Source: a virus. From it: DNA of 46,802 bases. Under the pieces are notes generated by a model. The model had not been told where the DNA came from. It was given only the letters and a program-made list of their open reading frames with translations, and did not search any database. The DNA is taken from positions 1 to 46,802 of the IMG/VR virus record IMGVR_UViG_3300045974_000591. The stretch is one strand, 5' to 3'. The translations under genes and the position numbers were made by a program. Shown here piece after piece: positions 10,575-34,822 of this stretch. Position 1 is the first letter of the stretch; each line of letters begins with the position of its first letter.

Positions 10575-10913
10575 ATGATATCTATTTCATCTTTATTTGA
10601 AATATCATTTGGATTATTAACTAACTTTGCAAATAAAAACCAAGAGAATGCAAAACAAGGTCAATATATTAGAGATAACGCGATTAAAGGTTTATCAAAT
10701 ATAGATAATAGATCAAATACTGCAGAAATGGATCATTCAATACATAAAAATAATCTATCATTTGGAAATGGTTTACTTAATACTACAACCAGAAATAATC
10801 AACGAATGGACGAAATAAAAAATAGATTAAATATGAGATCACAACCTAATTATAAATCTTCACCTGAATATGAAAAAAGTAAGTATATAACTTCAAATAT
10901 TAAAGGTATGTAA
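10575..10913 (+). CDS. Leader-bearing small protein, candidate capsid cargo, 112 aa
   Basis: The N-terminus MISISSLFE matches the shared leader described in the findings, with Glu at residue 9. The rest is polar and Asn/Lys-rich, low in hydrophobic core, and likely extended or helical (RDNAIKGLSNIDNRSNT). The start follows the previous stop by two bases and has no clear SD, so coupling is likely. No catalytic motif is seen. The small, basic, low-complexity character fits a T4-type internal protein, but that is inference. Confidence 0.5.
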   Translation: MISISSLFEISFGLLTNFANKNQENAKQGQYIRDNAIKGLSNIDNRSNTAEMDHSIHKNNLSFGNGLLNTTTRNNQRMDEIKNRLNMRSQPNYKSSPEYEKSKYITSNIKGM

Positions 10914-10963
10914 AGAGAGTAAGATAAAGAATTTGGAAAAATAAAATATAGGAGATTAATTAT

Positions 10964-11185
10964 ATGCTTTCAATATGTGAAAGTTTTTTTGACGATGCAA
11001 AGCAAAGATTTAAAAATTTTGCCGATACTACTGTTATTAAAACTAATGATGCTATTGCTAAAGGTGTAACTGCTGGATTACCAGTTTATAATAAATTAAA
11101 AGAAGATGCTAAAGTTAAAAGTATGGAGTATGTGCAAAAAGGTAAACAAGCATATAATACAGGATTGGATCGATTAAAAGTATAG
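10964..11185 (+). CDS. Leader-bearing small basic protein, 73 aa
   Basis: SD is AGGAG. The product begins MLSICESFFDDAKQRF. Its first nine residues closely match the 17068 gene product (MVSICESLF), though the rest differs. It is Lys/Ala-rich and helical (AIAKGVTAGLPVYNKLKEDA) with no membrane segment. The ICE tripeptide at residues 4-6 fits the (I/L)-x-E form of a prohead protease site. The function is unknown; candidate DNA-associated internal protein. Confidence 0.5.
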   Translation: MLSICESFFDDAKQRFKNFADTTVIKTNDAIAKGVTAGLPVYNKLKEDAKVKSMEYVQKGKQAYNTGLDRLKV

Positions 11186-11198
11186 GAGAGAAAATTAT

Positions 11199-11573
11199 AT
11201 GATTAGTTTATATGAAATATTTAGTGATACAGCACCAACTACTATTAATTATCCGGGTATGAAAAAAGAGAACTCTGAAACATCTATACATACCCATGGG
11301 AAAAAGAAAAAGAAGATTATATCTGAATACAGCAATTCTTTCTTTGATGGTATGGCAAATAAAAATAAACAAGATTATATTTATAATAATCACGAATCAG
11401 AAAAATTAGGTACACCAGCACAAAAAACAGAATATGCTAATAAAAGAGAAATTGCTCTTAGAAATTTACCACGAGTAGAAAATTTAAGAAAACGAGAAGA
11501 AGAAAATAGAAAAACTCGAATACTCAATAAAGTTAATAAACCTTTTTATTTTGCTCAAAATAAACCTGTTTAA
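11199..11573 (+). CDS. Leader-bearing basic protein, 124 aa
   Basis: SD is AGGAG. It begins MISLYEIFSD, a variant of the shared leader with Glu at residue 6. The body is very basic and disordered-looking, with a Lys run (HGKKKKKIISEYSN) and Arg/Glu-rich helices (RVENLRKREEENRKTRILNK). There is no membrane segment. High positive charge and small size fit packaging with DNA. I see no enzyme motif. Confidence 0.5.
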   Translation: MISLYEIFSDTAPTTINYPGMKKENSETSIHTHGKKKKKIISEYSNSFFDGMANKNKQDYIYNNHESEKLGTPAQKTEYANKREIALRNLPRVENLRKREEENRKTRILNKVNKPFYFAQNKPV

Positions 11574-11591
11574 TTTAAATAGGAGTTCATA

Positions 11592-13232
11592 ATGTATGTT
11601 CATAACTTCTATGCTGATCTCCTTTTATCTATACGAATGTTATATGATAAATATGTTTTTGAAAATGATAAATATATTAAGAGATATGAATTCAATATTG
11701 GAAATAGAACATTTCAATTACCTTATGACTTAAAGCCAAATTTTGAATTTCCTAATATGATAGTAACTCTTAATGATGAAAATTCAGCATTTGGTCAGAA
11801 ACCAGAAGTTTCCCAAAATATAAAAGGTTGGAATATTGATCAAGTTCCAGTATTATGGAATGAAACAAATAATAGTATTATTTATGTTCAAGAAGAAATG
11901 ATTTTAGTGCCAATTACTTCTTCTATTAATTGTGAATCACAACTACAAGCTAAAGAAGTAGCTAATGTAATTAAACGTTGGTTACCTAATAACAAGTTTA
12001 TACAATTTTTGGAATTTGTATCATTTTTAGAATTATCTAAAGATTTTCTTTCCATTAATGATTTTAATCCCGATATACAAAAAATCAATAATATCTATCA
12101 AAAGATTAATAAAAGAAGTGGAGATTTGGAATATTGTTTTGGAATGCATTATAAACCTTTTATTAGATTGGATTCGATTTCAACTACAATTCCAGATTCT
12201 TCACAACGATCATATCAAGTAACATCAGAAGTTACATATATGATACAAGAACCTTTATATTTATATAATGATCAACTTCCTAATAGTCCTGTTGAAAGAA
12301 TTAATTTTGCCTTAGGTGTTTCATCTGGATTTGAACCGATATCCACTATACCTGCTTTTAAAATTTTAACTAATACTACTGCTGATGATAGTGGCTTTAT
12401 TAAGAAAAAAATAATTTTTTATGAAGACTTATCTATTTTAGATAATCGTCTTATTGATATGGTTGTTTTATTAAAAAATGAAACATATAAAAAATCTGAT
12501 AACTTTACAGTCTATAAAAAAGTAGATGATATTTTTTATATACGAATTAATGATAAAAAATATCAGATAGCTCTTTCCGCATTATCCGAAACTCCATCTA
12601 AAATTTCTATAAATGATGATGATACTTTATCTATTACAATGGATAGTAATTATAATATTACAGTTTATCTGCATCGGAAGTTAAAAATCTTTCCGGTAAT
12701 ATTTAATACTAATGATTTTATTTTAACAACTGATTATGAATATGATATTATAACAACAGATATTAATACGGGAAAATCAAATATTGTATATAATTTTAAA
12801 GATTATATTTTAGATGAAGAAAAGAATAGTATTAGTATTTCTTTTTTAAATAGTGAATGGAATAAGATTTTTCCAACTTTATTAAGACCATTTATCATTC
12901 AATTTTATACGAAACAATATCCAGAAAAATCTAATTCTGATTTAGCTAGTTCGGATATATTAAATGTTAAAATTATTAACAATCAAGAAACATTAGTAGT
13001 AATTACATGGGCTACTATTCCATTAACAACTTCACAAATTGAATATGGAATAGATGAAACGTATGGATTATTTTCTAATAAAGATGAAAAGTTTACTAAA
13101 GTTCACAGAGTTATGTTATGTGGATTAACTCCTAATACCCAATATCATTATCGTGTTAATACTATTGGGCAAAATTATCAACCTATAGTATCTAATGATA
13201 TAATATTTACGACAATCGGGAGTTCTGTATGA
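11592..13232 (+). CDS. Large virion protein with C-terminal fibronectin type III domain, 546 aa
   Basis: SD is AGGAG. The N-terminal region (about 1-200) is mixed helix/strand with aromatic residues; the middle is beta-rich. Residues about 458-545 resemble a fibronectin type III or purple-acid-phosphatase N-terminal-like domain: TLVVITWATIPLTTSQIEYG, then LCGLTPNTQYHYRVNTIG, then a last strand IIFTT. Such domains occur on phage tails and capsids and bind surfaces weakly. It overlaps the next gene by four bases (ATGA). It is probably a tail or baseplate-associated structural protein; no family is recognised for the N-terminal part. Confidence 0.6.
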   Translation: MYVHNFYADLLLSIRMLYDKYVFENDKYIKRYEFNIGNRTFQLPYDLKPNFEFPNMIVTLNDENSAFGQKPEVSQNIKGWNIDQVPVLWNETNNSIIYVQEEMILVPITSSINCESQLQAKEVANVIKRWLPNNKFIQFLEFVSFLELSKDFLSINDFNPDIQKINNIYQKINKRSGDLEYCFGMHYKPFIRLDSISTTIPDSSQRSYQVTSEVTYMIQEPLYLYNDQLPNSPVERINFALGVSSGFEPISTIPAFKILTNTTADDSGFIKKKIIFYEDLSILDNRLIDMVVLLKNETYKKSDNFTVYKKVDDIFYIRINDKKYQIALSALSETPSKISINDDDTLSITMDSNYNITVYLHRKLKIFPVIFNTNDFILTTDYEYDIITTDINTGKSNIVYNFKDYILDEEKNSISISFLNSEWNKIFPTLLRPFIIQFYTKQYPEKSNSDLASSDILNVKIINNQETLVVITWATIPLTTSQIEYGIDETYGLFSNKDEKFTKVHRVMLCGLTPNTQYHYRVNTIGQNYQPIVSNDIIFTTIGSSV

Positions 13233-13771
13233 TTTCAATAATGAAAATTTTAAGTGAAGCAGATGCCTATTATCAACCAGGAACAAAAATCCCATTACCA
13301 CCAAGACCAACTTATGCACCACGTCAAGGAACAGTAGCTCAACAACCAATGATTGCACAACCACAACAAGTTCAACAACCACATGTTGTGACAGTTACTA
13401 CACCACAACCAGTGCAACAACCAGTTTTGCAACCACCACCGATTGCAATACCTCCCCAAGTTGCTCCACAACCACTTATTGTTCAACCACCAAGAGCCGC
13501 TGGTATGCCTGCAACTAATGTTGGACAACAAGTAGCAGATAAAGCAAAACAACAAGTTGAATTAATTAAGCCAATACAGAAAAATTTAACTGCTGGTGAA
13601 CATGCTGCTGCATTGGCTGAAAAAGGTGTTCGCGGAGCAGGTCAAGTTGCTGGTGATTTAACACATGGTATTGGCGATGTAGCAAATGCTCATCCAGGTG
13701 TAGCCACGGCAGTAACTGGTGCATTGGCGGCATTGGGAATAAATAAATATCTGAAGAGAAATAATCAATAA
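13229..13771 (+). CDS. Leader-bearing Pro/Gln-rich protein with Gly/Ala-rich helix and basic tail, 180 aa
   Basis: It begins MISIMKILSEADAY, with LSE at residues 8-10. Residues about 20-95 are dominated by Pro, Gln and Val (PQQVQQPHVVTVTTPQPVQQ), an extended linker. The C-terminal 58 residues (from GEHAAALAEKGVRG to the end) match the 13786 gene product and contain a hydrophobic helix HPGVATAVTGALAALG followed by a basic tail (INKYLKRNNQ). It overlaps the previous gene by four bases. It is the first of a run of proteins with this C-terminal helix. A role in membrane interaction or cargo anchoring is inferred. Confidence 0.55.
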   Translation: MISIMKILSEADAYYQPGTKIPLPPRPTYAPRQGTVAQQPMIAQPQQVQQPHVVTVTTPQPVQQPVLQPPPIAIPPQVAPQPLIVQPPRAAGMPATNVGQQVADKAKQQVELIKPIQKNLTAGEHAAALAEKGVRGAGQVAGDLTHGIGDVANAHPGVATAVTGALAALGINKYLKRNNQ

Positions 13772-13785
13772 GGAGAATTTTGATC

Positions 13786-14277
13786 ATGGCTTTTGAATTT
13801 GCAAAAAATGGTGTTTTAGAAGAGGGTTGGAAAGGCAAAGCTGCAGTGGGTGCTGCTGGATTAGGAGCTTCTTTATATGCTGCTAAAAAATTAGGTGATA
13901 TGGCAAGTGATGCTGCTGATGGTGCTGGTAAATTTGCTCTTAAGAAAACTGGATTAACTACACAGACAGCAGCTGATGCAGCAGCTAATCAAAAGTTTAC
14001 AGAAGGTCAAATTGCGGGGAAAAATGCAGCAGCGGCAGCAGCTAAAAAAGCAGCAGAAGAAAAAGCTAATGTAGTAACACACACTGATACTAATGGTACT
14101 GGTGAACATGTAAATGCAATAGCACAAAAAGGAATAAAAGGTGCTGCTTCAGTTGCTAGTGATGCAACAACTGCTATTGGTCATGGAATTGATACTCATC
14201 CTGGTGTAGCAGCGTTAGCAGCAGGCGCAGTTCTAGGCGCAGTTCTTCGTCGCCGTAGACAAAATCAGGGTCAATAA
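13786..14277 (+). CDS. Ala/Lys-rich protein with two Gly/Ala helices and basic tail, 163 aa
   Basis: The ATG at 13786 has AGGAG ten bases upstream; a TTG at 13780 is too close to the SD. The sequence begins MAFEFAKNGVLEEGWKGKAA and contains a first hydrophobic stretch AAVGAAGLGASLYAAKKLG, a long Ala/Lys helix (NAAAAAAKKAAEEKAN), and a C-terminal unit homologous to the previous gene (GEHVNAIAQKGIKGAASVAS ... HPGVAALAAGAVLGAVLRRRR). VLEE near residues 11-14 could be an (I/L)-x-E cut site. It is probably a capsid-internal or membrane-active protein. Confidence 0.55.
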   Translation: MAFEFAKNGVLEEGWKGKAAVGAAGLGASLYAAKKLGDMASDAADGAGKFALKKTGLTTQTAADAAANQKFTEGQIAGKNAAAAAAKKAAEEKANVVTHTDTNGTGEHVNAIAQKGIKGAASVASDATTAIGHGIDTHPGVAALAAGAVLGAVLRRRRQNQGQ

Positions 14278-14306
14278 AAATAGAAAATATCTTGGAGGAT
14301 TTTTAA

Positions 14307-15109
14307 ATGTTTAATACCTTATATCAAACGTTAGGTCCAGTTTTATTTGAACAAATTATTATTGAATCTGTTTGTGACTATTGTTTATATGAAAATAAAT
14401 TAGAAGAAACAGTACAATCATTTGAAGCCCAAACATTTGATGATGTATTCTTCTCTAATATTACTCCTTATTTTATGAAAAATTTAGGTATTTATAAACC
14501 TGAATTATTAGAAGAAACAGCAAATCATGCATTTCCCGCTGATCGTTATGGATTAAATAATGTAGCCAGTACTAATGTTCGAACTGGACAAATTAATGCG
14601 AAAAGTAGTCCAGCTAGTAAAAATACACAAAACAATAATACTGGCAATACTGTATCATCTCCTAAAAAAGATAATCCGGATACTGCAATTCCCACAATTA
14701 ATCCTACACACGAAGCAATAACAGAAAATCTTTTCTATTTTGATGCAAAAGATAAAGTTATTAGTGGGGAAAATAAAATAATCCCAATTCGTATTACTCC
14801 GGAAGTATCTACAGCAAAACCAGGTTCTACAGCTGTATTTCTTTGTGAAGCAATTGCTAATGGTATTAACCAAGCAATTGATGTATTAGAAGAAGCTCGT
14901 TGTAGTAAAATGAATAAAGCAGTTAAAGCTGCTGCTATTGCTGGTGGTTTGAAAAAAAAAGTTTAAATGAATCAATAGATCCAGAATCAAAAGAACAACT
15001 TAATAAATTATTAACAATAAATGCTGGGCTTAGTGTTGCTGGTATGGCAACATTAGGAACTGCAGCATTATTAGCAAAATTAAAAAATAAAAAGAAGAAA
15101 AATAACTAA
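14307..15109 (+). CDS. Protein probably completed by a -1 frameshift, 219 aa (0 frame) or 267 aa (shifted)
   Basis: The 0-frame product starts at 14307 after GGAGG and stops at 14966 right after AAA AAA AAA GTT TAA. Nine As run from 14952 to 14960. Shifting back one base there gives an open frame to 15109 that adds SLNESIDPESKEQLNKLL, a hydrophobic helix (INAGLSVAGMATLGTAALLA) and a basic end (KLKNKKKKNN). That helix plus tail is the hallmark of the neighbouring proteins, so the extension looks real. The framing A_AAA_AAA (14954-14960) is a permitted bacterial slippery sequence. The N-terminus includes VLFEQIIIES, with (L/I)-x-E sites. A sequencing or assembly indel is the alternative. The central part is Asn/Ser/Thr-rich. 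Confidence 0.6.
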
Positions 15110-15152
15110 ATTTACTCATAGAGTAAAAACATCAATCTAAGAGGAGTTACAA

Positions 15153-15659
15153 ATGGACATCAACAAAATCATCGAAGAATCAATCAATGCCGTTATTGGT
15201 GAAACTACCATCATGGAAAGTTCTGAAGTAGTTGAAGAATCAGTAGCTTCGAAAGTTAAAGAAGCCGCAGATAATGCTGGTATTGCTACTCATCTTAAAG
15301 ATGTCGACCCGGCTAAAACTGGTGCATTAGCTGCTGCGTTAGCAGCTGGTGTTGGTGCGGTTGCCCTTGCTAAGAAACTTCGTTCTTCTGGTCAGAGGAA
15401 GCGAATTCAAGGTAATTCTCCTTCTGCTGGTGTTGTTCCTGGATTGAATGCTGCCGAAGCAGCAGTAGAAAAAGCAGCAGCAGTACCTGGTAAAGCAGCT
15501 AAAGCAGCTAGAGCTGCTGGTACAAAATTAAAAACTCGTGCACAACATGCTGCAAGAACTGCCGATTTAAATTATAATTTTGCTAAAGGTGTATTGAAAG
15601 ATAAAGCCAACCAAGCGTTAGATAAAGGCTACGGTACATTAAAAGCCAAAATGAAATAA
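15153..15659 (+). CDS. Histone-H1-like Ala/Lys-rich protein with Gly/Ala helix, 168 aa
   Basis: SD is GAGGAG. The acidic N-terminus (MDINKIIEESINAVIGETTI) precedes a unit HLKDVDPAKTGALAAALAAG (47-66) with a hydrophobic helix at 57-73. It continues KKLRSSGQRKRIQG, then an Ala/Lys/Arg-rich tail (KAAKAARAAGTKLKTRAQHA) like histone H1 or DNA-packing proteins. HLKD-x-D followed by the helix is shared with the 15674 gene product. It probably binds DNA inside the capsid or during delivery. The unit's helix may insert in or line a membrane; both roles are inference. Confidence 0.6.
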   Translation: MDINKIIEESINAVIGETTIMESSEVVEESVASKVKEAADNAGIATHLKDVDPAKTGALAAALAAGVGAVALAKKLRSSGQRKRIQGNSPSAGVVPGLNAAEAAVEKAAAVPGKAAKAARAAGTKLKTRAQHAARTADLNYNFAKGVLKDKANQALDKGYGTLKAKMK

Positions 15660-15673
15660 TTAATGAGGTAATT

Positions 15674-16120
15674 ATGTGGAATTTTATTACCGAAATTAAA
15701 ACAATTGATGATGCAGAAAGAGAATTAAATAATAGAAATTATGATAAAATAGTTAATTTTAAAAAAAATAAAGATGATGATTCTAGAATTCGGGCATATA
15801 AAAAAGGTATGAAGGCTGCTAATAAAGATGATGATTCTAGAATTCGGGCATATAAAAAAGGTTTGGCTGCTGCCGATAAAGAGGATTTAAAAAAACGAAC
15901 TTCGAAAACATTTAAACAGGGGTATGAAAGCGAACGAGAACATTTAAATCCTTCTTTAAAAGTCATTAAAAAATCAGCAAATGAGCAAATGTTTACTACC
16001 CATCTTAAAGATATAGATCTACATAAAACAGCAACATTGGTAGCTGCATTAACTGCTGGAGCAGGAGCTGTTCATCTTGCTAGAAAATTTTATAAAGCAA
16101 AACATCATAAAGAAGAATGA
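15674..16120 (+). CDS. Leader-bearing protein with a tandem repeat and C-terminal Gly/Ala helix, 148 aa
   Basis: It begins MWNFITEIK, with ITE at 5-7, like the T4 internal protein leader ending FIAE. The SD and first codons (GAGGTAATT then ATGTGGAATTTTAT) are nearly repeated at the next gene. Residues 33-68 are two 18-residue repeats (KDDDSRIRAYKKGMKAAN and KDDDSRIRAYKKGLAAAD). The C-terminal unit HLKDIDLHKTATLVAALTAG ... HLARKFYKAKHHKEE matches those at 15153 and 16131. Very basic overall, as expected for a DNA-associated internal protein. Confidence 0.6.
   Translation: MWNFITEIKTIDDAERELNNRNYDKIVNFKKNKDDDSRIRAYKKGMKAANKDDDSRIRAYKKGLAAADKEDLKKRTSKTFKQGYESEREHLNPSLKVIKKSANEQMFTTHLKDIDLHKTATLVAALTAGAGAVHLARKFYKAKHHKEE
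15770..15877 (+). repeat. Two 54-bp in-frame tandem repeats
   Basis: Units at 15770-15823 and 15824-15877 begin with the same 42 bases (start AAAGATGATGATTCTAGAAT) and differ only near their 3' ends. Each encodes 18 residues of a charged helix, KDDDSRIRAYKKG followed by five variable residues. It looks like a recent in-gene duplication. Confidence 0.9.
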
Positions 16121-16130
16121 GGTAATTAAC

Positions 16131-16472
16131 ATGTGGAATTTTATAACTGAAGGTATAAAAGAAAATCTTGAAAAAGCAGCAGAAAATTTACAAAATCCAG
16201 ATGTTGTAACCGCATTACAAGATGAACAAGCTGAAAAAATAAATCATATTGCACGTAAAGTTAGTGAAAATGTAAGACATGCCACGACTCCATCTTCTGA
16301 TTTATTTGAACCAATTAGACATGGAGGAGCTGTTGCAGGTGAAGAATATAGACATTTTACTACATCTCATGGTTTAGATCCTCAAAAAACAGCGGCATTA
16401 TCTGCAGCTATAGCAGCTGGAGCTGGAGCTGTTCATCTTGTTAGAAAATTACGTAAAGCAAAACATAAGTAA
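16131..16472 (+). CDS. Leader-bearing protein with C-terminal Gly/Ala helix, 113 aa
   Basis: The ATG at 16131 was chosen for its SD (GAGG, 10-14 bases upstream) and because MWNFITEGIKEN repeats the leader of the 15674 gene; an in-frame extension back to 16077 lies in the previous gene. A helical middle (NLEKAAENLQNPDVVTALQD) leads to SHGLDPQKTAALSAAIAAGA and HLVRKLRKAKHK, the shared helix and basic tail. ITE at residues 5-7 is a candidate protease site. It is a paralogue of its upstream neighbour at both ends but not in the middle. Confidence 0.6.
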   Translation: MWNFITEGIKENLEKAAENLQNPDVVTALQDEQAEKINHIARKVSENVRHATTPSSDLFEPIRHGGAVAGEEYRHFTTSHGLDPQKTAALSAAIAAGAGAVHLVRKLRKAKHK

Positions 16473-16515
16473 TTTTTACAAAACTATTTTAAACAAACTA
16501 TTGGAGGAAGTAAAA

Positions 16516-16815
16516 ATGGCTACACGAGTCGATGCAATTCTTGAAGCAATGGGCGAAGATGTATTTACTGAAAACGAAGAAGTGATCAGTGAAATGATCG
16601 AAGAAGTAAATGAATTTCCTAAATATTTAAAAGCATTCGTTTTAAATAACCCAACTGAATTCATTGGTGAATCAGTTGAAGAGACTTTCAAAAATGTTCG
16701 TCTCTTTTCGGAAATTTCAACTGCTCAATATATGACTGAGCTTTCTCATATTTATGCAGCTGATGTTGAAGAAACTGAAGTTGTTGAAGAATCAAAAATC
16801 GAAGATTATCTGTAA
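16516..16815 (+). CDS. Small acidic helical protein, 99 aa
   Basis: The ATG at 16516 follows TTGGAGGAAGTAAAA, a strong SD; the frame upstream belongs to the previous gene. The product is acidic (GEDVFTENEEVISEMIEEVN) and helical, without a membrane segment. The beginning MATRVDAILEAMGED contains ILE followed by Ala, another possible (I/L)-x-E site. It contrasts with its basic neighbours, so it may be a partner or scaffold for them. No family is recognised. Confidence 0.55.
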   Translation: MATRVDAILEAMGEDVFTENEEVISEMIEEVNEFPKYLKAFVLNNPTEFIGESVEETFKNVRLFSEISTAQYMTELSHIYAADVEETEVVEESKIEDYL

Positions 16816-16837
16816 TTTTTGTAAAAGGGAAGATAAT

Positions 16838-17068
16838 ATGATCGACAAAACAGATCTTCCACATTTAGTTACTGCTGCTGTTGTAGCTGGTCTAGCTATA
16901 ACAGCAGCTAAAAAATATCATGATCATGTGAAGAAAAATAAGATACTTAAAAAGCAAGGGTTTAAAATTCATAATCATTCTTATATCCCTTCAATTGATC
17001 AAGTTGTTGATGTATCTACTAATATAATAGATACTCTTGCGCACTCTAAATTTAGAGGTAAAAAATAA
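16838..17068 (+). CDS. Small protein with one hydrophobic helix and basic tail, 76 aa
   Basis: The ATG at 16838 follows AAGGGAAG. Residues 8-24 (HLVTAAVVAGLAITAAKKY) form an Ala/Val-rich helix, then a basic segment (HDHVKKNKILKKQGFKIHNH). This is the same helix-plus-basic-tail plan as the genes at 13229-16472, here placed at the N-terminus. The stop overlaps the next start by one base (TAATG). It may be a membrane-associated or DNA-binding small protein. No family is recognised. Confidence 0.55.
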   Translation: MIDKTDLPHLVTAAVVAGLAITAAKKYHDHVKKNKILKKQGFKIHNHSYIPSIDQVVDVSTNIIDTLAHSKFRGKK

Positions 17069-17256
17069 TGGTATCTATATGCGAAAGTTTATTTAGAAAT
17101 AGTGTTGCTAATATTTTGCCGAAATTAGCAAAAACTCATACTAATATTGATACTAAAGCTAATCAAGCTGTTAACGTTGCTGCAGTTTCTAATCGGAAAA
17201 CTATTGTTAATGGTGATCCAAATTTTGGTAAAAGACGATTTAGATTTAAATATTAA
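17068..17256 (+). CDS. Leader-bearing small basic protein, 62 aa
   Basis: It begins MVSICESLFRN, closely matching the leader of the 10964 gene (MLSICESFF), with ICE at residues 4-6. The rest is basic, ending GKRRFRFKY. Its start overlaps the previous stop. It is the last plus-strand gene before the convergent minus-strand operon, and the bidirectional hairpin at 17269 follows it. Probably DNA-associated, by charge alone. Confidence 0.5.
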   Translation: MVSICESLFRNSVANILPKLAKTHTNIDTKANQAVNVAAVSNRKTIVNGDPNFGKRRFRFKY

Positions 17257-17456: not shown

Positions 17457-18776
17457 TTAGTTCATTTTAATGTTAAGTATATTACCAATTGCATTATCAA
17501 TAGCTGGTAACTTACCACCTTTAGTAATGATGAATGTTAATGGGGTATTATTTTTAATCCAATCATATCTAGAAATAATATTTTCAATATCAGAATAACC
17601 ATCTGTTAATGATATTACCATACTTAGATCATCTTTTTTCTCTTTCCAAAATTCTTCTTCAATTTTAGTAAAAACTGGTTTGTGTGATGTTCCACCACGA
17701 CCATGATATCCTTCTTTTTTAATAAATTCATAAAACTGATATATATTATCTTTAGTAAAAATTTTATGTTGTTGTACATTTACATCGTGTACGAGAAGAT
17801 GTATTTCTTTAAAATATTTCATACTCATTTCAATTATATGAGAAAATTTTTTAAGTTCACTAGTATTAACAGAACCTGAAGAATCTGCCGTTATAATTAA
17901 CATACCTACGCCTTCGACATCTTCGGTCATTGTGTACCCAGGTAATGTTAAATCAAGAGCAATATAAAATTTATTAAGTACTCTCCAACTACGATCATCT
18001 GGTTTCATTATAACATTTGTTTTAATTGATCGTTCAACTAAAACATGCCAAGGAATTTCAACTTTAAGAATATTATCTAAATACTCCTTAATAAAAGACG
18101 ACACAGCACCTTTTTCTTTTAAATTTTCAAATACTGCTCTTGATTCGGCAACAAATTGTTCAATTAATGATTGTTCACCAGGATCTAATTGACCTTCAAG
18201 ACCTTGAACTTCTGGATTAGTAATAAATAATTCGTTATCATTTTTATCAGAAACATGAATACCACTTTCTGAATCTGGTCTATGATAATTAAAATTTTGT
18301 TTAGCACTACTATTTATAATCCAATCATACGCTTGTTCAGTTGTACAATTTGGTAATTCTTTTTCTAATTGATCTATTATATTGTAAATATTTTGATATG
18401 GTTGGAGTTTATTTATATTTTTTAGAAATCGGTCAATAGTATGATCACCAGCAATATTAAATGCATCATGATTTCTATCACCTACCCGAAGTCCATGTTT
18501 ATTTAATATATGCATTAGTTCGTGACATATAAGAAATGCAAGATTGGCAAAATTATAATCTTCTTTTTCTATAAAATATTGATTGATAATAATTTCACCA
18601 CTTTCCACTTTATTCATATCATTTTGAGCAAATAAAACTTGACCTTCAATTTCTGGACGATTTAAATCTCTAATAACCCAATTGAATTTATTTGCCGACA
18701 TACCAAAAAATATTAACTCATTTGTAAATAATAATAGTTTACATTTTCTAATTTTAAGATCTATTGTATCTCCCAT
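17457..18776 (-). CDS. Metallopeptidase-like / VWA-domain protein (DUF2201 type), 439 aa
   Basis: The N-terminal half contains HELMH at residues 85-89 followed by FNIAGDHTID (106-115), the zinc-site pattern of the predicted metallopeptidase domain (DUF2201_N). The C-terminal half is a VWA-like domain with a MIDAS motif DSSGS at 298-302, a conserved Thr in GRGGTSHKPVF and a third Asp in SLTDGYSD. This two-domain protein is characteristically paired with a MoxR ATPase, which is the gene immediately upstream (three-base gap). Such pairs act as chaperone or metal-insertase-like remodelling machines. Whether the HExxH is catalytic is unknown. The target in this phage is unknown. Confidence 0.8.
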   Translation of the reverse strand: MGDTIDLKIRKCKLLLFTNELIFFGMSANKFNWVIRDLNRPEIEGQVLFAQNDMNKVESGEIIINQYFIEKEDYNFANLAFLICHELMHILNKHGLRVGDRNHDAFNIAGDHTIDRFLKNINKLQPYQNIYNIIDQLEKELPNCTTEQAYDWIINSSAKQNFNYHRPDSESGIHVSDKNDNELFITNPEVQGLEGQLDPGEQSLIEQFVAESRAVFENLKEKGAVSSFIKEYLDNILKVEIPWHVLVERSIKTNVIMKPDDRSWRVLNKFYIALDLTLPGYTMTEDVEGVGMLIITADSSGSVNTSELKKFSHIIEMSMKYFKEIHLLVHDVNVQQHKIFTKDNIYQFYEFIKKEGYHGRGGTSHKPVFTKIEEEFWKEKKDDLSMVISLTDGYSDIENIISRYDWIKNNTPLTFIITKGGKLPAIDNAIGNILNIKMN

Positions 18777-18779
18777 AAA

Positions 18780-19979
18780 TTAACTTCCAAAATCAAGATT
18801 TAATTCAGAAACATCTTTTAAAACACTTCTAACCAATATTGGATCTATTTTTTGAATTTGGGCAATAATATTTCTAACAATATTTTTCTTACCCAATGAT
18901 TTTTCTAATTGAGACATTTCTTTAATCATCATAACAGATAAATCTGGTGAATTATTCATAAACAATGAAATTAAATATGCCATAGCATTTAATGATTTTT
19001 CTCTTTCTTCTTTGCCTATATAGAAGTTAGTTAAAGCAAAAGCTAATGCATATTTTCTTACACTTTCAGATGGTAATTCGTATGTAGAATAATTATTAAA
19101 GATATGTTCAATATCAAATTCAGAATAAATTTTATAATAAGTAATAAATTCTGAAGCTGCTTCTTTTCCTACATAACCAGTACCAAGATATAAACAAGTA
19201 TCAGTACTCATATTCTTTTTATACCAATTTTCTCGACTAGTAATTTCACTAGCAAAACGTGTCCAAGATCTTGGTGATCCCCATGCTTTATCAACTTGTT
19301 CTTCTTCATGGAAGAATTTTTGATACTGAAGATTACTCAAGAATGAAAGAATCGCTGGATGAAGATTATTTTTAATTGCATAATTAATTTTCCAATTATT
19401 AAAATCAGTATAAACTGGCATTAAACAACATCGATTAACAATAGCACTAAACATAGTTTTGGCACCAGATTTATTGCTAGTATTACCAGCCATTACAATT
19501 GCACAATTATTTGGTAATTTATAACTCCTCAATGTTCGTTCTGTTAAGAGTTCATATAGTAATGCCATATGAACTGCACTTAATAAATGAGAATCATCTA
19601 ATAACCAAATCACACAACCTTGTTCTTTACCATCGACAATTTTAGAATATTTTTCTGACATTTCAAATAAAGTTTTCATAATATCAGGAAATGACCAAAC
19701 CGTTCCTAAAATATCTTGTCCATTAATTTTAATTCGTTCAAATTGTGGAATGCCTCCTGTTTCTTCAAGAGGTTTAAGTGCCAAGTGAGTAGATAAAACG
19801 CCGAATCCATAAGTATCACATAAACTCTGAATACTGGCCGTTTTTCCACCACCCGGTGCGCCACATATAAATGGAATACCAACATCTACGTTATGTGTTT
19901 GTAAAACACAATTTTCTACAACTAATCTAATTACCTCATTTAACGGTTTTGAATCTTTTAACTCATCACTCATCAACAT
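18780..19979 (-). CDS. MoxR-type AAA+ ATPase, 399 aa
   Basis: Walker A is GAPGGGKT at residues 40-47. Walker B is VIWLLDDSH at 123-131, with Asp-Asp in place of the usual Asp-Glu. Sensor 1 is in IVMAGNTSNK (161-170). The segment LALKPLEETGGIP (67-79) is typical of MoxR/RavA-like ATPases. The start is the first ATG, nine bases after AAGGAG; the third codon is also ATG but is too far from the SD. It is the first gene of the minus-strand operon, preceded by a candidate promoter at 20044-20069, and should work with the adjacent VWA protein to remodel a target complex. Confidence 0.8.
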   Translation of the reverse strand: MLMSDELKDSKPLNEVIRLVVENCVLQTHNVDVGIPFICGAPGGGKTASIQSLCDTYGFGVLSTHLALKPLEETGGIPQFERIKINGQDILGTVWSFPDIMKTLFEMSEKYSKIVDGKEQGCVIWLLDDSHLLSAVHMALLYELLTERTLRSYKLPNNCAIVMAGNTSNKSGAKTMFSAIVNRCCLMPVYTDFNNWKINYAIKNNLHPAILSFLSNLQYQKFFHEEEQVDKAWGSPRSWTRFASEITSRENWYKKNMSTDTCLYLGTGYVGKEAASEFITYYKIYSEFDIEHIFNNYSTYELPSESVRKYALAFALTNFYIGKEEREKSLNAMAYLISLFMNNSPDLSVMMIKEMSQLEKSLGKKNIVRNIIAQIQKIDPILVRSVLKDVSELNLDFGS

Positions 19980-23317: not shown

Positions 23318-24103
23318 ATGGTTATATTGTCACCTTTATTTGAAGAACATTATTATCAAACTGAATTAGAAAAATTTGGTTATGAAATATCTATTAATGA
23401 AGAAATATATCTTGAACAAGATGACTATAATATATTTTTTGAATATCTATCTGAAGGATTTACACTAGATCAAAATGCTAAAATTAAATTAGCTGGTAAT
23501 AATAAAGTAAAAGAAGCAAAAAGTCGATTACAAGATAATTTAAAAACAAAAACATATGAACCAGGATTTTTGCGTAGATCAATAGACAAATTTGGAGCAA
23601 CTACTACTGGTGGTTTTATTAATAGGGGATTAAATTCTGATTTATTAAAACCGGTTGTTAATAGAATTAAATATGGCATAGCTGATAGAGTAGCAAAAAA
23701 TAGTGGTCTCAGAATAGGCAAAAATCTTACTAATATTAAAAAACAGCAAGAAGAAGCTGTGGGTAATGCATTTAATAAGAAAAAATTTAATACAAATTTT
23801 GATAAACATATAACAAAATTAGATAAAAATTCTAATAAATTAACATGGGCATTACAATATCGAAGAGCCCATGAAAGTGAAGAATCGTCTGCAGCTCGAA
23901 CAGAGCGAGAGAAAAAAGCAGAGGCTTTAAAAACTGCTAATACACCACCACCTAATACACCACCACCTATTAATAAAGTTAAAACACGCCGGAAAAAACA
24001 AACTTTTGATCCACAACAAAATCCACCACCTGTAATTCCACAAACAAATACAACTGCTCAAAATATTAGTAACTCCATAAATAAACATTTTGTTAAATAT
24101 TAG
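23318..24103 (+). CDS. Leader-bearing basic protein, 261 aa
   Basis: The ATG at 23318 lies seven bases after GGGAG and gives MVILSPLFEEHYYQ, the classic leader with Glu at residue 9; an upstream TTG was rejected. The body is basic and helical (KIKLAGNNKVKEAKSRLQDN; RRSIDKFGATTTGGFINRG), with a Pro/Thr/Asn linker (TPPPNTPPPINKVKTRRKKQ) near residue 213. No enzymatic motif is visible. Charge and leader fit a DNA-associated capsid cargo protein. Confidence 0.55.
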   Translation: MVILSPLFEEHYYQTELEKFGYEISINEEIYLEQDDYNIFFEYLSEGFTLDQNAKIKLAGNNKVKEAKSRLQDNLKTKTYEPGFLRRSIDKFGATTTGGFINRGLNSDLLKPVVNRIKYGIADRVAKNSGLRIGKNLTNIKKQQEEAVGNAFNKKKFNTNFDKHITKLDKNSNKLTWALQYRRAHESEESSAARTEREKKAEALKTANTPPPNTPPPINKVKTRRKKQTFDPQQNPPPVIPQTNTTAQNISNSINKHFVKY

Positions 24104-24111: not shown

Positions 24112-24133
24112 TAAGTGAGGAAAATATGATAGC
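24112..24133 (+). repeat. 22-base direct repeat carrying SD and first codons, copy 1
   Basis: This stretch (start TAAGTGAGGAAAATATGATA) holds the SD GTGAGG and the first codons ATG ATA GC. It is identical to 24581-24602, although the downstream coding sequences are unrelated. Duplication of a leader-plus-SD cassette is the simplest reading. Confidence 0.85.
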
Positions 24134-24326
24134 TCTAACACAAGCACTAACTGAAACAATACATTCTGGATACGTTTTAGATGGTCGATTAGGAGTAGAA
24201 AATTTTGGTAAAGAAATTAAATATGACGAATCTTCTGGTAATATTGGAGAAGATACTGATCCTACTACCGAAGATAATGATTTCACCCCTGGTCAATCTT
24301 CAATATTTAAATTTACTGGAAAGTAA
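24126..24326 (+). CDS. Leader-bearing small acidic protein, 66 aa
   Basis: The ATG at 24126 follows GTGAGGAAAAT; the frame open from 24090 overlaps the previous gene. It begins MIALTQALTETIHSG, with LTE at residues 8-10. The rest is acidic (EIKYDESSGNIGEDTDPTTE) and probably disordered. The SD and first codons (24112-24133) are identical to those of the gene at 24595, evidence of a copied leader cassette. Function unknown. Confidence 0.55.
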   Translation: MIALTQALTETIHSGYVLDGRLGVENFGKEIKYDESSGNIGEDTDPTTEDNDFTPGQSSIFKFTGK

Positions 24327-24329: not shown

Positions 24330-24587
24330 ATGATAATATTATCTCCTTTATTTGAAAATAATATTAATGGAAAATGTTTAAAACGTTCTATAAGTGAAAT
24401 TAATAAAAATGGTGGAAATTTAATAATGGGGCCATCTGGACAAAAAGGGGACACCGCTCATTTTTGGGTAGAAAGAAATGGCAAAATTATTGATCGAACT
24501 AAAGAAGCAGTAAGTTCTAATTATGAATATAATGGAAGACTTGTTAATATGTCTAATGTTTTGAAAGAATTAAAATCATCTAAGTGA
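24330..24587 (+). CDS. Leader-bearing small protein with a Cys/His hydrolase-like motif, 85 aa
   Basis: It begins MIILSPLFENNINGKCLK, with leader Glu at 9 and Cys at 16. Further on is GDTAHFWVERNGKIIDRT (residues 40-57). A Cys at a helix start and a later H-x-W-V-E then D pattern is found in small phage papain-like or transglutaminase-like proteins, where HAWVE and a nearby Asp form the catalytic set. At 85 residues it would be a minimal version; whether it is active is unclear. It sits between two other leader-bearing genes. Confidence 0.5.
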   Translation: MIILSPLFENNINGKCLKRSISEINKNGGNLIMGPSGQKGDTAHFWVERNGKIIDRTKEAVSSNYEYNGRLVNMSNVLKELKSSK

Positions 24588-24602
24588 GGAAAATATGATA
24601 GC
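24581..24602 (+). repeat. 22-base direct repeat carrying SD and first codons, copy 2
   Basis: It is identical to 24112-24133. Here it covers the last codons and stop of the 24330 gene and the start of the 24595 gene. Confidence 0.85.
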
Positions 24603-25098
24603 ACTATCTCCATTATTTGAAATTAAAATTCCATTTAGTGATAATCTTGCCGAAATTCTTAAAAATCCAAAAGTTCAAGAATTTATCCATCTTTCTAAAA
24701 AATTAGTAGATAGTGGAGAAGAAGCTTTAACTTCACAACAACAAACTAAATATCGAGGAATGTTCGAAGATGAAGCGGTAAAAGATTATATAACTGCTAC
24801 TGCTAAAACTGGAGAACGTGATGGTTGGATACGTGGTGGAATTTTAGGATTTTTAACAGGTTCAGCGACTTCTTTATCTGCGTTTGCTAATGACGTTGGT
24901 GGATTACCTTTAGCTGCATTAACTTTATTAGGAGGAATAGCTGGGGGATTTATTGTTGGTTATCCAGTTTCCAAATTACTCTCTATTTTAAGGAAATGGC
25001 GAGCAGAAGATAATGTTGTTAAGTTGGCTAAAGTGGGTGGGAAAATCGGTGGAACTGTACCATTTGTTACCACCAATTCTAATATAAGTACTTTTTAA
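24595..25098 (+). CDS. Leader-bearing protein with Gly-rich membrane hairpin, 167 aa
   Basis: It begins MIALSPLFEIKIPF (leader Glu at 9). Residues 10-80 are helical and charged. Residues about 80-133 contain two hydrophobic Gly/Ala-rich segments (GGILGFLTGSATSLSAFAND and ALTLLGGIAGGFIVGYPVSK), a likely membrane hairpin. A basic segment follows (RKWRAEDNVVKLAKVGGKIG). Such glycine-zipper hairpins are typical of channel- or pore-forming or membrane-inserting proteins. No family name can be given. Confidence 0.55.
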   Translation: MIALSPLFEIKIPFSDNLAEILKNPKVQEFIHLSKKLVDSGEEALTSQQQTKYRGMFEDEAVKDYITATAKTGERDGWIRGGILGFLTGSATSLSAFANDVGGLPLAALTLLGGIAGGFIVGYPVSKLLSILRKWRAEDNVVKLAKVGGKIGGTVPFVTTNSNISTF

Positions 25099-26731: not shown

Positions 26732-27385
26732 ATGTTTATCGATACTATAACAACTTATTCGATTTTAGAAGAAACTGAATCTTTATCATTAGATCAATTA
26801 GTTAAACTTGGTCGAATAGATATGAATAGTGATAAACAATCTTTGATAAATAAAATTTTTCCAAGACCATTGGGAGTTTTAATTCAAGATTCCTATAATA
26901 ATCCATTCTTTCCTATTCGACCCACACCAAGATTAGATACTTCAACAATGAATCTTTTAGAAATATATAAAAGATTTAAAACCCTTTATTCAGGTTCTTT
27001 TACTGATACATTTTTGCCTTGGCATTACTGTATTGAATTTGTAGGTAATACATATCAAGTATTTGCAACTCGGCCTATTGATATGAAATTTCCACTTTCC
27101 TCTATCCAAGCACAAAATAGAAAAGATTTTTGGAATGAAGCAACACAACAATTTATGACTGATAATATCTTTGATATAAACATGGCCATCCATGTATTAG
27201 TAATTGGTGATTCAAACTTTGATGTTTATCCGAATCCTTTTTATAATAAATTGTCAAGAACTTGTGTTGTTCCTTTTATTAGATATTTTAAATTACCCAA
27301 TGCAGGATTACAACGAATCTTTTCATTGAATATGGGCAAGAACTTTGATTTTACTTATTTGTTAAATTATGTTGTTAAAGGATAA
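26732..27385 (+). CDS. Probable baseplate/tail protein, 217 aa
   Basis: It starts two bases after the spike stop. It begins MFIDTITTYSILEETESLSL, with ILE and a following Glu at residues 11-14. The product is globular, with aromatic and Pro-rich turns (RPTPRLDTSTMNLLEIYKRF; YPNPFYNKLSRTCVVPFIRY) and no membrane segment. Immediate proximity to the spike gene suggests a baseplate hub or wedge subunit. No family is recognised. Confidence 0.5.
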   Translation: MFIDTITTYSILEETESLSLDQLVKLGRIDMNSDKQSLINKIFPRPLGVLIQDSYNNPFFPIRPTPRLDTSTMNLLEIYKRFKTLYSGSFTDTFLPWHYCIEFVGNTYQVFATRPIDMKFPLSSIQAQNRKDFWNEATQQFMTDNIFDINMAIHVLVIGDSNFDVYPNPFYNKLSRTCVVPFIRYFKLPNAGLQRIFSLNMGKNFDFTYLLNYVVKG

Positions 27386-27409: not shown

Positions 27410-27604
27410 ATGATTAGTATTGGTGCAATGTTTGAGTTATCTACGAAGATGGCACGTGCTTTAGAACACACAGGGCATAATTATCTTTATGATTCTAAAT
27501 TTAAAACTGGTGAGGATAAAGCTACTGCGTTAAAAAAGGCTAGTCAAGCATATTCACTTGGTATTAGAATTAATAAAAAATTTAATGAAAAGGAAATAAA
27601 ATAA
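27410..27604 (+). CDS. Leader-bearing small basic protein, 64 aa
   Basis: SD is AAGGAG. It begins MISIGAMFELSTKMARALEH (leader Glu at 9), followed by a helical Lys/Ala-rich remainder (KATALKKASQAYSLGIRINK). No membrane segment or catalytic motif. It lies between baseplate genes and a candidate promoter. Candidate capsid cargo by leader only. Confidence 0.5.
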   Translation: MISIGAMFELSTKMARALEHTGHNYLYDSKFKTGEDKATALKKASQAYSLGIRINKKFNEKEIK

Positions 27605-29734: not shown

Positions 29735-29735
29735 T

Positions 29736-31305: not shown

Positions 31306-32295
31306 ATGAACTTTCCATTTTTAAAAATTATTAGCGAATCGTATGTTTTAGATAATCCTGGAATTAATGTTACTCAAGAACAAGTTTTCAATGAATTAAC
31401 TTATATAGCAAAAACAATACAACAAGAAGACCCAGGGTTATATAATGAAATATATGAATTAGAAAAAGTTAGACAACAACAATTATTAAAATGTTATATT
31501 GACAATATTTGTGAATCTTCTGATTTAATAACAAATGATGCTTATATAACAGAAGATCTTGATGAAGCAATTAATGAATTTGTAGATCTTACTATAGTTT
31601 TAGATTATCAAACAATTTTAATTTCATTATCAGCTATAATAACAATGCTCTCTGCTAAACCTTTGACAAAGTATATTTTTAAAGCCGCTTCTATTGTTGG
31701 TAAAGGATTAACATCATTAGGAAAATCATTATCTAAACAAGGTAAGTACGCTACATTACGGTATTCAATTATTCAAGAAAATTCTCGTCGTTGTTATGTT
31801 AAATGTGGTTTAACTGATATGTCAAAATTACATTTAACTGCTTATATGGGGATTAAACAAAAAACAGATTTAATTCCAGCAGTTTCAAGAGAACAAGCTT
31901 GGTGTTTACGAGATTGTTTTCTTGATAGTGTAATTGAAATAATTGCTTTACATATGGAAAACTATTTTGCTTGTCTTAAAAAGACTGGTGGTAGTGCGGC
32001 AATATCTCAAACAGATTCTGATGATATAATGAGAATGATATCTAATGTAAATTTATCAACTGCTTGCGAAGGTTTTTATAAAGAGGCTAAAAAAGGATTA
32101 GATGATTTTTATTCAACTATAGATTTAGTATTTGATAAAGCAGATGATGATAAAAAATTACTTTGGGTAAATAAATTAAGATCTAGAATATATGATGCAA
32201 GAAATGAAGTAAAAAAGCCTTCATTTCCACAATCAAATAATCAACCACAATTTCAACAAAAATCAAATCAACCATTTCAAAAATATTCTAAATAA
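31306..32295 (+). CDS. Leader-bearing Cys-containing protein, 329 aa
   Basis: It begins MNFPFLKIISESYVL, with ISE at residues 9-11, a variant of the shared leader. Residues 90-150 include hydrophobic segments (TILISLSAIITMLSAKPLTK; IVGKGLTSLGKSLSKQGK) that could be one or two membrane helices. The middle carries several Cys (RRCYVKCGLTD; AWCLRDCF). The C-terminus is Gln/Pro/Ser-rich. No family is recognised. It may be a virion-associated membrane protein. Confidence 0.5.
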   Translation: MNFPFLKIISESYVLDNPGINVTQEQVFNELTYIAKTIQQEDPGLYNEIYELEKVRQQQLLKCYIDNICESSDLITNDAYITEDLDEAINEFVDLTIVLDYQTILISLSAIITMLSAKPLTKYIFKAASIVGKGLTSLGKSLSKQGKYATLRYSIIQENSRRCYVKCGLTDMSKLHLTAYMGIKQKTDLIPAVSREQAWCLRDCFLDSVIEIIALHMENYFACLKKTGGSAAISQTDSDDIMRMISNVNLSTACEGFYKEAKKGLDDFYSTIDLVFDKADDDKKLLWVNKLRSRIYDARNEVKKPSFPQSNNQPQFQQKSNQPFQKYSK

Positions 32296-32319
32296 CTATT
32301 TTTAGGGGGAATTTTAACA

Positions 32320-32547
32320 ATGTTATCTACTTCAACTCTTCGTATGACCAAACAGAGTAAATTTAATATGCTTGCTGGCTCTTTTGCTATTCATATTGCT
32401 CGACAGAAAAAAGATCCTCTTTATGAAAAACTTATTCGCTTTAAGAAAGCATATCGTTTAGTTAAAAAACAACTTATTTCTAAATATGGTAGTCGTGGTC
32501 AGCAGGCTGCACGTCAAGCAGCAATGCATACTGGTGAAACTAAGTAA
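32320..32547 (+). CDS. Small basic protein, 75 aa
   Basis: SD is GGGGGA. The protein is short and rich in Lys, Arg and Ala, helical (RFKKAYRLVKKQLISKYGSR), with no membrane segment. It ends QQAARQAAMHTGETK. A strong terminator follows. It may bind nucleic acid; the charge is the only evidence. No shared leader is present. Confidence 0.55.
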   Translation: MLSTSTLRMTKQSKFNMLAGSFAIHIARQKKDPLYEKLIRFKKAYRLVKKQLISKYGSRGQQAARQAAMHTGETK

Positions 32548-32565
32548 AATTTTAAGAAATTTAAG

Positions 32566-32600
32566 AAAATGGGAAGGTACTTTTACCTTCCCATTTTTCT
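32566..32600 (+). terminator. Rho-independent terminator
   Basis: AAAATGGGAAGGTA (32566-32579) pairs with TACCTTCCCATTTT (32584-32597) around a four-base loop and continues into a T-run. It lies 18 bases after a stop, and a candidate promoter follows, so a transcription unit boundary is likely. Confidence 0.85.
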
Positions 32601-32610
32601 TATAGTCAAG

Positions 32611-32628
32611 TTATATATAGAAATTATA
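32611..32628 (+). promoter_or_regulatory. Candidate phage promoter, weaker match
   Basis: ATAGAAATTATA (32617-32628) matches the ATAGAAATAATA motif at 11 of 12 bases. A TTCT lies upstream but at a longer spacing (about 15 bases). It sits right after a strong terminator and about 40 bases before the Cas4-like gene. Confidence 0.4.
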
Positions 32629-32664
32629 ATTTTGCCGTTAAAAAATAAAAAATGAGGAGTGAAG

Positions 32665-33624: not shown

Positions 33625-33631
33625 GGTTAGT

Positions 33632-33874
33632 ATGCTAGTTATTTGTGAAATTTATAAACAATTAAAACGTGCAAATGGAATTATTAAAACTCATGGTAAA
33701 CATTTATATAATACGGAACAAAGTATTAATTATAAACATAAAATCAAATCTCCTAAATTAAAATTATCAAAAAAAGATTTTCATCATGTCATTAAAAATA
33801 CAGTACGTGAACTCAGTCCAGAAGGTGTGACTAGTATATTAGTACCAAAGATTATTAGTGCAATTAAACATTGA
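33632..33874 (+). CDS. Leader-bearing small basic protein, 80 aa
   Basis: It begins MLVICEIYKQLKR, with ICE at residues 4-6 (compare MLSICESFF and MVSICESLF). The body is Lys/His-rich (NYKHKIKSPKLKLSKKDFHH). No membrane segment. The SD is GAGG. A terminator follows. Fits a DNA-associated internal protein by charge and leader; no family is recognised. Confidence 0.5.
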   Translation: MLVICEIYKQLKRANGIIKTHGKHLYNTEQSINYKHKIKSPKLKLSKKDFHHVIKNTVRELSPEGVTSILVPKIISAIKH

Positions 33875-33875
33875 C

Positions 33876-33915
33876 ATACTAATGGAGATTAATTTCTCCA
33901 TTAGTATTTTATTTT
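33876..33915 (+). terminator. Rho-independent terminator
   Basis: ATACTAATGGAGA (33876-33888) pairs with TCTCCATTAGTAT (33895-33907) around a six-base loop, followed by TTTATTTT. It lies directly after the stop at 33874. Confidence 0.8.
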
Positions 33916-33925
33916 GGGGGTTTTG

Positions 33926-34822
33926 ATGGATATATTATGTTTAGAGCATTATGAACTTCCTTTATTTGAAGTTTCGCCATATCGAAGTTCTATTTTAAAA
34001 AAGATTGATAAAGATTTTGCCGAATTAAAAAAAGATAATAGAAATGTACAAATAAAAAAAGATATAATTTCTAATATTAAAGAATTTACTGGTATTAAAT
34101 CCGTATTATTTAGTGTTAAAAAAGATTATTTCAATGCTAGTGTTATTCCAGTTTATAATAGAGCTTTATCATTAGATTTATTAACTGTATGTAAAAAATT
34201 TGAAGCTGGTGAATCAATTTCAGATTTAAATGTAGTTGAAGAACCATCTAAATATATTGATAAGTTAGTTATTATTTTTGGTAATACCTTAATAAAGCAA
34301 TTTACACCTCGAGAGTTAACTGCTATCTTATTACATGAATTAGGACATGGTTATATACATACATCAAATTTACCTCGATTATTAGTTACTTTATTTGATA
34401 AAGTTGGAAGAGTTGGGGGATTAATTACTAACTCTATTTTGTGGTTTTTAAAAATACTAACATTCAACGTTAGTCTTTTTTTTACTATGATTTTTGCTTT
34501 AATAACAAGAACAGCTACTTTTTTTGAACATCAAGGTGAATTTAAAGCAGATCAATTTGCTGCTAAATATGGTTATGGCGATGAAATGATTAAAATATTA
34601 TATAAATTTCATAACTTTTCAAAAAAAGAAAAAGATAAACAAAATTGGTTAGTTAAAATTTTAAATTATTTATCAGAAGTATTAAGACCTTCTAGTCATC
34701 CAGAAGACATTAAAAGAATTATTAAAATATCAGAAGTAATGATGACTGATTATAAGAAAATGTATCCCCAATTATCTGATGAATTATCTATTATTTTAAC
34801 GGATATTAAAAAACAAATATAG
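33926..34822 (+). CDS. M48-like membrane metallopeptidase, 298 aa
   Basis: The ATG at 33926 lies five bases after GGGGG. The zinc motif is HELGH at residues 137-141 and the third ligand region is GEFKADQFAAKYG (204-216, Glu 205 and Asp 209), the M48 (HtpX/Ste24) pattern. Residues about 164-195 between these are hydrophobic and may be one or two membrane helices. The N-terminus contains LPLFEVSP (11-18), matching the shared leader but shifted 6 residues. M48 enzymes cleave membrane or periplasmic proteins. A cytoplasmic-membrane role after injection or in virion maturation is possible. Confidence 0.75.
   Translation: MDILCLEHYELPLFEVSPYRSSILKKIDKDFAELKKDNRNVQIKKDIISNIKEFTGIKSVLFSVKKDYFNASVIPVYNRALSLDLLTVCKKFEAGESISDLNVVEEPSKYIDKLVIIFGNTLIKQFTPRELTAILLHELGHGYIHTSNLPRLLVTLFDKVGRVGGLITNSILWFLKILTFNVSLFFTMIFALITRTATFFEHQGEFKADQFAAKYGYGDEMIKILYKFHNFSKKEKDKQNWLVKILNYLSEVLRPSSHPEDIKRIIKISEVMMTDYKKMYPQLSDELSIILTDIKKQI

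Follow-up and report, generated by a model that had tools for sequence, protein, structure and literature searches.

Otherwise unrelated proteins of the virus analysed here and of its uncultured relatives begin with a common short leader, which is likely to be a capsid targeting sequence (CTS) resembling that of phage T4, greatly expanded in use. The tag and its statistics, selection at the peptide level, the protease and capsid of the relatives, the matching motif, the basic bodies, and the turnover of cargo in fixed slots are established; that the tag targets proteins to the head, is cut off there, and leads to packaging and injection is inferred, as are the roles of individual cargo proteins. 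The (L/I)-x-E motif at the end of the leader, the basic cargo, peptide-level selection, and slot-wise turnover fit a T4-like CTS. The original prediction, namely T4-like capsid targeting of an arsenal packed in the head and injected with the DNA, is supported, with virion content, cleavage, and injection remaining inferences.

The leader in the window and its relatives

The window, the whole stretch of DNA that was analysed, spans all 46,802 bases of a virus record and is probably a piece of a larger genome. Encoded on it are UvsX (29904), proteins resembling those of the tail tube and wedge, and a MoxR-like ATPase next to its partner gene (17457-19979). At its right end the fragment stops at the terminase; head genes come next in relatives, and the head module with its protease and capsid genes is not within the fragment. 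The tagged genes of the window sit among tail and baseplate genes and are as follows, together with one possible further protease substrate, 26732 (a slash marks the end of the leader):

10575..10913, + strand: leader protein MISISSLFE/I, 112 aa; strict leader
10964..11185, + strand: short-leader protein MLSICE/S, 73 aa; loose leader; slot as G001 40160-40929
11199..11573, + strand: short-leader protein MISLYE/I, 124 aa; loose leader
13229..13771, + strand: leader protein MISIMKILSE/A, 180 aa; loose leader; body related to 13786
15674..16120, + strand: MWNFITE/I, 148 aa; loose leader; C-terminal Ala/Gly-rich hydrophobic helix and basic tail
16131..16472, + strand: MWNFITE/G, 113 aa; loose leader; C-terminal module as in 15674
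17068..17256, + strand: short-leader protein MVSICE/S, 62 aa; loose leader
23318..24103, + strand: leader protein MVILSPLFE/E, 261 aa; strict leader
24126..24326, + strand: MIALTQALTE/T, 66 aa; loose leader
24330..24587, + strand: leader protein MIILSPLFE/N, 85 aa; strict leader
24595..25098, + strand: leader protein MIALSPLFE/I, 167 aa; strict leader; hydrophobic Ala/Gly-rich segment
25109..25861, + strand: leader protein MISVINFFE/N, 250 aa; strict leader; weak PrsW-like intramembrane protease match
26732..27385, + strand: conserved 217-aa protein, N-terminus ending YSILE (relatives: KIIAE, KLLTE, KILTE); possibly a further protease substrate
27410..27604, + strand: leader protein MISIGAMFE/L, 64 aa; strict leader
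31306..32295, + strand: conserved protein MNFPFLKIISE/S, 329 aa; leader end kept in homologues from three relatives (FLKEISE/A, FLKGISE/A)
33632..33874, + strand: short-leader protein MLVICE/I, 80 aa; loose leader
33926..34822, + strand: M48 metallopeptidase with a longer leader, MDILCLEHYELPLFE/VS; Pfam M48 E 2.3e-10, over cut-off

The starts listed in the original prediction are genuine ATG-started ORFs with a Shine-Dalgarno-like sequence on their 5' side, and its claim of a short leader shared across unrelated proteins was confirmed. That the remaining sequences are unrelated held by BLAST with one exception, the bodies of 13229 and 13786, which are related to each other; 15674 and 16131 share, as judged by eye, both the leader and a C-terminal Ala/Gly-rich segment. 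The proteases said to be among the leader proteins come down to one clear M48 enzyme and one sub-threshold match of the 25109 protein to PF13367 (PrsW-like; E 6.1e-4, 19.8 bits, Pfam cut-off 23.5). The leader of the M48 gene, which aligns with that of its homologue in the relative G003 (MDNFEIQELIFE/VS), had been overlooked.

The form M-[IV]-x-[ILV]-x-x-[LMF]-F-E begins six window genes (10575, 23318, 24330, 24595, 25109, and 27410). The strict scan pattern, M-[ILVM]-x-[ILVM]-x-x-[LMIF]-[FY]-E, is met by 6 of 69 window genes vs 0.01 expected on average when residues 2-14 of each protein are shuffled. If both strands are scanned and gene calls ignored, seven matches are obtained where dinucleotide shuffles predict 0.07; six of them coincide with gene starts, and the seventh (21084) lies out of frame within 20498-21454 and looks like chance. 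The loose leader set yields 16 matches vs 4.0 expected, so a minority of the short leaders may be due to chance. The forms MLSICE, MVSICE, MISLYE, MISIMKILSE, MIALTQALTE, MWNFITE, and MLVICE are individually weaker, those of six residues being less certain; they gain support because these short forms come up again in relatives (MISICE, MISIVE, MISVIAE).

Relatives were obtained via IMG/VR scans: G001 (285,572 bp; 17457-type protein 52% and UvsX 60% identical to those of the window), G002 (87,836 bp), and G003 (68,671 bp). No relative emerged when IMG/VR was scanned with a single protein, the hub-like 25845, and a search with UvsX returned distant phages only. Strict leaders begin 20 genes in G001 (plus one after start correction), 10 of 119 in G002, and 1 of 83 in G003, with about 0.01 expected by shuffling in each. 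In G001 they are found on 17 of 143 genes of the late/structural region vs 3 of 320 in the early region, and about 36 proteins are tagged if short forms are included. Gene starts were taken from a simple caller and two had to be corrected; G001 66680, considered as a leaderless homologue, was rejected, its start having been miscalled and the leader lying upstream at 66632. An IMG/VR query with the leader DNA pattern retrieved 21 stretches, mostly G001 and G002, plus new contigs, of which G006 and G007 hold many leaders of slightly altered form (MIPISYLFE, MITISWLFE). When 14 records were scanned for the strict form irrespective of strand, all 24 matches fell in G001, G002, G006, and G007, and the reversed pattern gave none. 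The strict leader is absent from nine other phages (Goe21, S6, phiR1-37, immuto, T4, YerA41, NCTB, and two metagenomic huge phages). No paper on the leader of these phages was found in the open literature searched, subscription literature not being covered.

An alignment of 71 tagged proteins gives the consensus MISIxxLFE, followed by no consensus at all; class A leaders have L at position 7 in 52/56 and F at position 8 in 55/56, Glu9 being a condition of the pattern used. Codons at Ile2, Ser3, Phe8, and Glu9 follow background usage, with Ser3 encoded in both the TCN and AGY blocks, and the sole common element upstream of leader genes is the Shine-Dalgarno sequence; therefore, selection acts on the peptide. 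The Leu7 codon is skewed to TTA (31/34 vs 19 expected, p 0.003).

Two particular occurrences of the leader may be noted. On the opposite strand of G001 (184851-189559, -), in an otherwise early-gene region, the leader begins three genes, of which one encodes an HD domain. At G002 71499 (L027:11499) the leader frame has ATA where a relative has an ATG start, possibly a mutation, an assembly error, or a non-standard start.

Head protease, cut-site motif and tagged bodies

The lack of any prohead protease had been named as an outcome that would refute the prediction. Looked for in the relatives, this outcome was not met: G001, G002, and G003 each encode a head maturation protease of the S80 family between a portal-like gene and the major capsid gene, and an S80-type head protease is also present in G007.

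G001 94957-95721: S80 head protease (Pfam PF20034 3.6e-6, 26.8 bits vs cut-off 23.4; PHROG 3.3e-15)

An alignment of this protein with T4 gp21 shows His85, Ser151, and Asp178 conserved (IDHP and LNHP, GFSLRALG and GVSSRGLG, respectively). By Pfam scores, however, it is S80 (phiKZ type) and not S77 (T4 gp21 type). Peptidase S77 (PF03420) had no match in the window, a fragment that stops at the terminase, or in G001, the controls of the window search giving no signal, and a PDB sequence search with the protease returned nothing. The head genes of G001 are arranged as portal-like (92377, portal assigned from position alone), 94488 (MLLVEVLFE...), protease, and capsid (95750-97357), an order like gp20-67-68-21-22-23 of T4. 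The protein in the portal/protease interval, the position of gp67/68 in T4, starts with MLLVEVLFE, MFLVEVLFE, or MFLCEILTE in the relatives.

For the G001 capsid protein, a PDB match was obtained with 7x30 ('Major structural protein ORF12', 1.6e-9), and a tblastn search with the capsid protein against isolated phages found nothing. The N-terminus of the major capsid protein contains LLTE/[SA]ANVPGS in G001, G002, and G003 and FLTE/AEIGG in T4 gp23; given the resemblance of LLTE to FLTE, the leader ends in the motif that a capsid cut site should have. This capsid site was read independently of the leader and is located in relatives, not in the window. The leader ends at a site of the prohead-protease type, (L/I)-x-E, as far as the motif goes; cleavage is inferred. 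Relative to shuffled sequences, tagged bodies contain [LI]xE at 0.87 and Ex[LI], its reverse, at 1.27 of the expected frequency, and in other proteins both lie at 1.09-1.26 ([LI]xE vs Ex[LI] 53/78 in tagged bodies, 862/875 elsewhere; Fisher p 0.046). Since this value is uncorrected for the several motifs tried, the depletion is weak and suggestive only, and some [LI]xE sites persist inside tagged bodies. Separately, [LI]xD is strongly enriched inside tagged proteins of the window and G001-G003 (92 vs 52 expected), an unexplained finding to which undetected paralogy might contribute.

Behind the leader, BLAST sorts the tagged bodies into 17 clusters and 39 singletons, i.e. about 56 families, a number that could shrink through remote paralogues. 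The bodies are basic, with a median pI of 9.8 and 79% above pI 9 vs 32% of length-matched proteins (maximum 51% in about 1000 resamples). A transmembrane-like segment is found in 7% of them vs 12% of other proteins, and the idea that the cargo as a whole is transmembrane was set aside as unsupported. Tagged genes occupy conserved slots between structural genes, and the cargo in them differs between relatives: the slot between the 10231 and 11592 genes holds three tagged genes in the window, four in G001, and one in G002. In the close pair G001/G002, a body may stay while its leader is remodelled (MISITE... vs MKSIREQLFE...). Homologues in G001-G003 were found for 0/10 leader proteins of the window vs 19/40 other short proteins (p 0.008), a comparison which is supporting only because short proteins are harder to match.

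Most tagged proteins match no Pfam or PHROG family. Domains over cut-off in tagged proteins of the relatives are Tad6, HD, DUF5661, DUF5662, and NT5C, and a LigD-type domain was found as well:

G003 57640-58092, - strand: Tad6 homologue with leader MLSLYYLFE (E 1.6e-16)
G007 89533-89997, - strand: Tad6 homologue with leader MITISWLFE (E 5.2e-14)
G001 17576-18013, + strand: leader fused to a LigD-type 3'-phosphoesterase domain (E 2.1e-19; PDB 3.9e-22)

Tad6 (PF25188) is a type I Thoeris inhibitor; tagged Tad6 occurs in two lineages and is not found in the window, and the matches leave the N-terminal third of the profile uncovered. The Tad6 homologue of Yersinia phage YerA41 has no leader, though its record calls it a structural protein. 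The LigD-type protein would be a DNA end-repair enzyme among the presumed virion cargo, an inference from sequence alone. A primase/polymerase-like domain guessed in G001 15856 was supported by no search and was dropped.

Known systems, proposed mechanism and alternatives

The T4 internal proteins IPI, IPII, IPIII, and Alt share a CTS of 10-20 residues through which they reach the prohead core and which gp21 then cleaves off (Mullaney and Black 1996, cited in PMC3012670, PMC5694885). Foreign proteins bearing it get packaged, IPI* once injected inhibits a restriction enzyme, and T-even internal proteins are diverse outside the CTS (PMC3012670, PMC5694885). As in T4, the leader described here is short, N-terminal, and carried by otherwise unrelated, mostly basic proteins; it ends at Glu after a hydrophobic residue (T4: MKTYQEFIAE, MELITELFDE); the head protease adjoins portal and capsid genes; and the cargo varies between relatives (for T4, PMC3012670). 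Unlike in T4, the leader sequence is a different one, about 36 proteins are tagged in one 285-kb genome vs four (about nine-fold), domains of the Tad6, LigD phosphoesterase, and M48 kinds are represented in the cargo, and the protease scores as S80 and not S77. In phiKZ and SPN3US, inner-body and ejection proteins are cut by the S80 proteases gp175/gp245 (PMC5694885, PMC10052503). Both systems have an S80-family protease and N-terminal propeptides and belong to large phages with numerous head proteins, but those propeptides mostly comprise 111-254 residues and are cut at A-x-E or S-x-E (PMC5694885, PMC10052503), whereas the leaders here have 6-10 residues, end in L/I-x-E, and are common to many unrelated proteins. 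The N-terminal signal of P1 DarB is comparable in that it suffices to bring a foreign protein into the head; no common sequence was found among the Dar proteins (PMC9024508), whereas the tag here is plainly shared. The present system would work in the manner of the T4 CTS, with a different leader, a far larger number of tagged proteins, and an S80-scoring protease; packaging, cleavage, and injection are inferred.

In the proposed mechanism, the tag M-I-S-[IV]-x-x-L-F-E would make proteins bind the prohead core during head building. An S80/gp21-like prohead protease, encoded beside the portal and capsid genes outside the fragment, would then cut after Glu, at a site of the same (L/I)-x-E type as in the major capsid protein. 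The mature proteins, mostly basic, would remain with the packaged DNA, enter the host alongside it, and act before any phage gene expression, the presumed activities being anti-defence, DNA end repair, proteolysis, and nucleotide hydrolysis. Against this reading it must be held that no virion proteomics exists for these uncultured phages, that the protease of the window is inferred from relatives, that the leaderless YerA41 homologue of Tad6 is labelled structural, and that six-residue leaders are shorter than the T4 CTS.

Among the alternatives, the one closest to this mechanism accepts prohead targeting and cutting and takes the proteins for core, scaffold, or DNA-condensing parts of the head instead of injected effectors. 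Many bodies are indeed small and basic, and the core-position protein (G001 94488) also has the leader; however, fast cargo turnover between relatives and domains with an enzymatic or anti-defence role (Tad6, LigD phosphoesterase, HD, M48) would be unusual for structural parts, which makes this explanation unlikely. Less likely still is a leader that directs proteins elsewhere, be it the tail tube lumen, the baseplate, the cell membrane, or a phage-made compartment. N-terminal cargo signals are used by other injection systems, and the tagged genes of the window lie among tail and baseplate genes; yet the leader ends in a capsid-type cleavage motif and also begins the core-position head protein, and transmembrane-like segments are uncommon among tagged bodies (7% vs 12% of others).

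Two further explanations can be all but dismissed. If the leader stretch were a DNA or RNA element (promoter, translation enhancer, or recombination site) translated only incidentally, the TTA bias at Leu7 would be accounted for, but the remaining codons at background use, the presence of both serine blocks, and the lack of any common upstream element other than the Shine-Dalgarno sequence largely refute it. Chance or a gene-calling artefact could be argued from the one out-of-frame match (21084) among seven in the window; it is already refuted by 6-7 matches where 0.01-0.07 are expected, by reversed-pattern controls without a single match, and by the lack of strict matches in nine other phage records.

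The preferred reading, T4-like capsid targeting, can be extended to a jumbo phage clade with a universal plug-in tag: any gene gaining the tag would become virion cargo, and dozens of such proteins, with anti-defence and DNA-repair proteins among them, would be delivered before phage transcription and swapped in fixed slots as host defences change. The balance of evidence tips only slightly towards this bolder view. If dozens of proteins carry a recognisable tag, virion-delivered effectors could be listed by sequence only. Since most tagged proteins belong to no Pfam or PHROG family, they form a candidate set for new anti-defence proteins, and tagged Tad6 in two lineages is a first concrete hint of anti-defence cargo. 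How large phages withstand defences acting ahead of early gene expression also becomes a testable question.

Other elements of these genomes

The large terminase subunit of the window is in two parts (43978-44637 and 45715-46800) with an ORF (44862-45614) between them. An HNH-like ORF interrupts the terminase here (44638-45714) and at a similar place in G002 (48289-49314), not in G001; the portal and capsid genes of G002 also appear interrupted, by introns or inteins.

In G004/G005 (L073-L081, L063-L068), phages with a gp21-like protease, other N-termini end in [LI]xE (MENFDLKKYLSE, MNNDFNLKQFLTE, MDNFDIKKYLIE), which may be a targeting tag of their own; one MISI(N/S)KLFE protein, a nucleotidase, is found there too.

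About 20 proteins, several of which also have the leader, share a second module at the C-terminus, consisting of a hydrophobic Ala/Gly-rich segment and, after it, a Lys/Arg tail. Most of them are encoded in the slot that has the 11592-type tail gene on one side and the 17457-type gene on the other, and the module might represent a membrane-inserting helix:

window 13229-17068: Ala/Gly-rich module region
G001 42587-45266: Ala/Gly-rich module region
G002 13514-16356: Ala/Gly-rich module region
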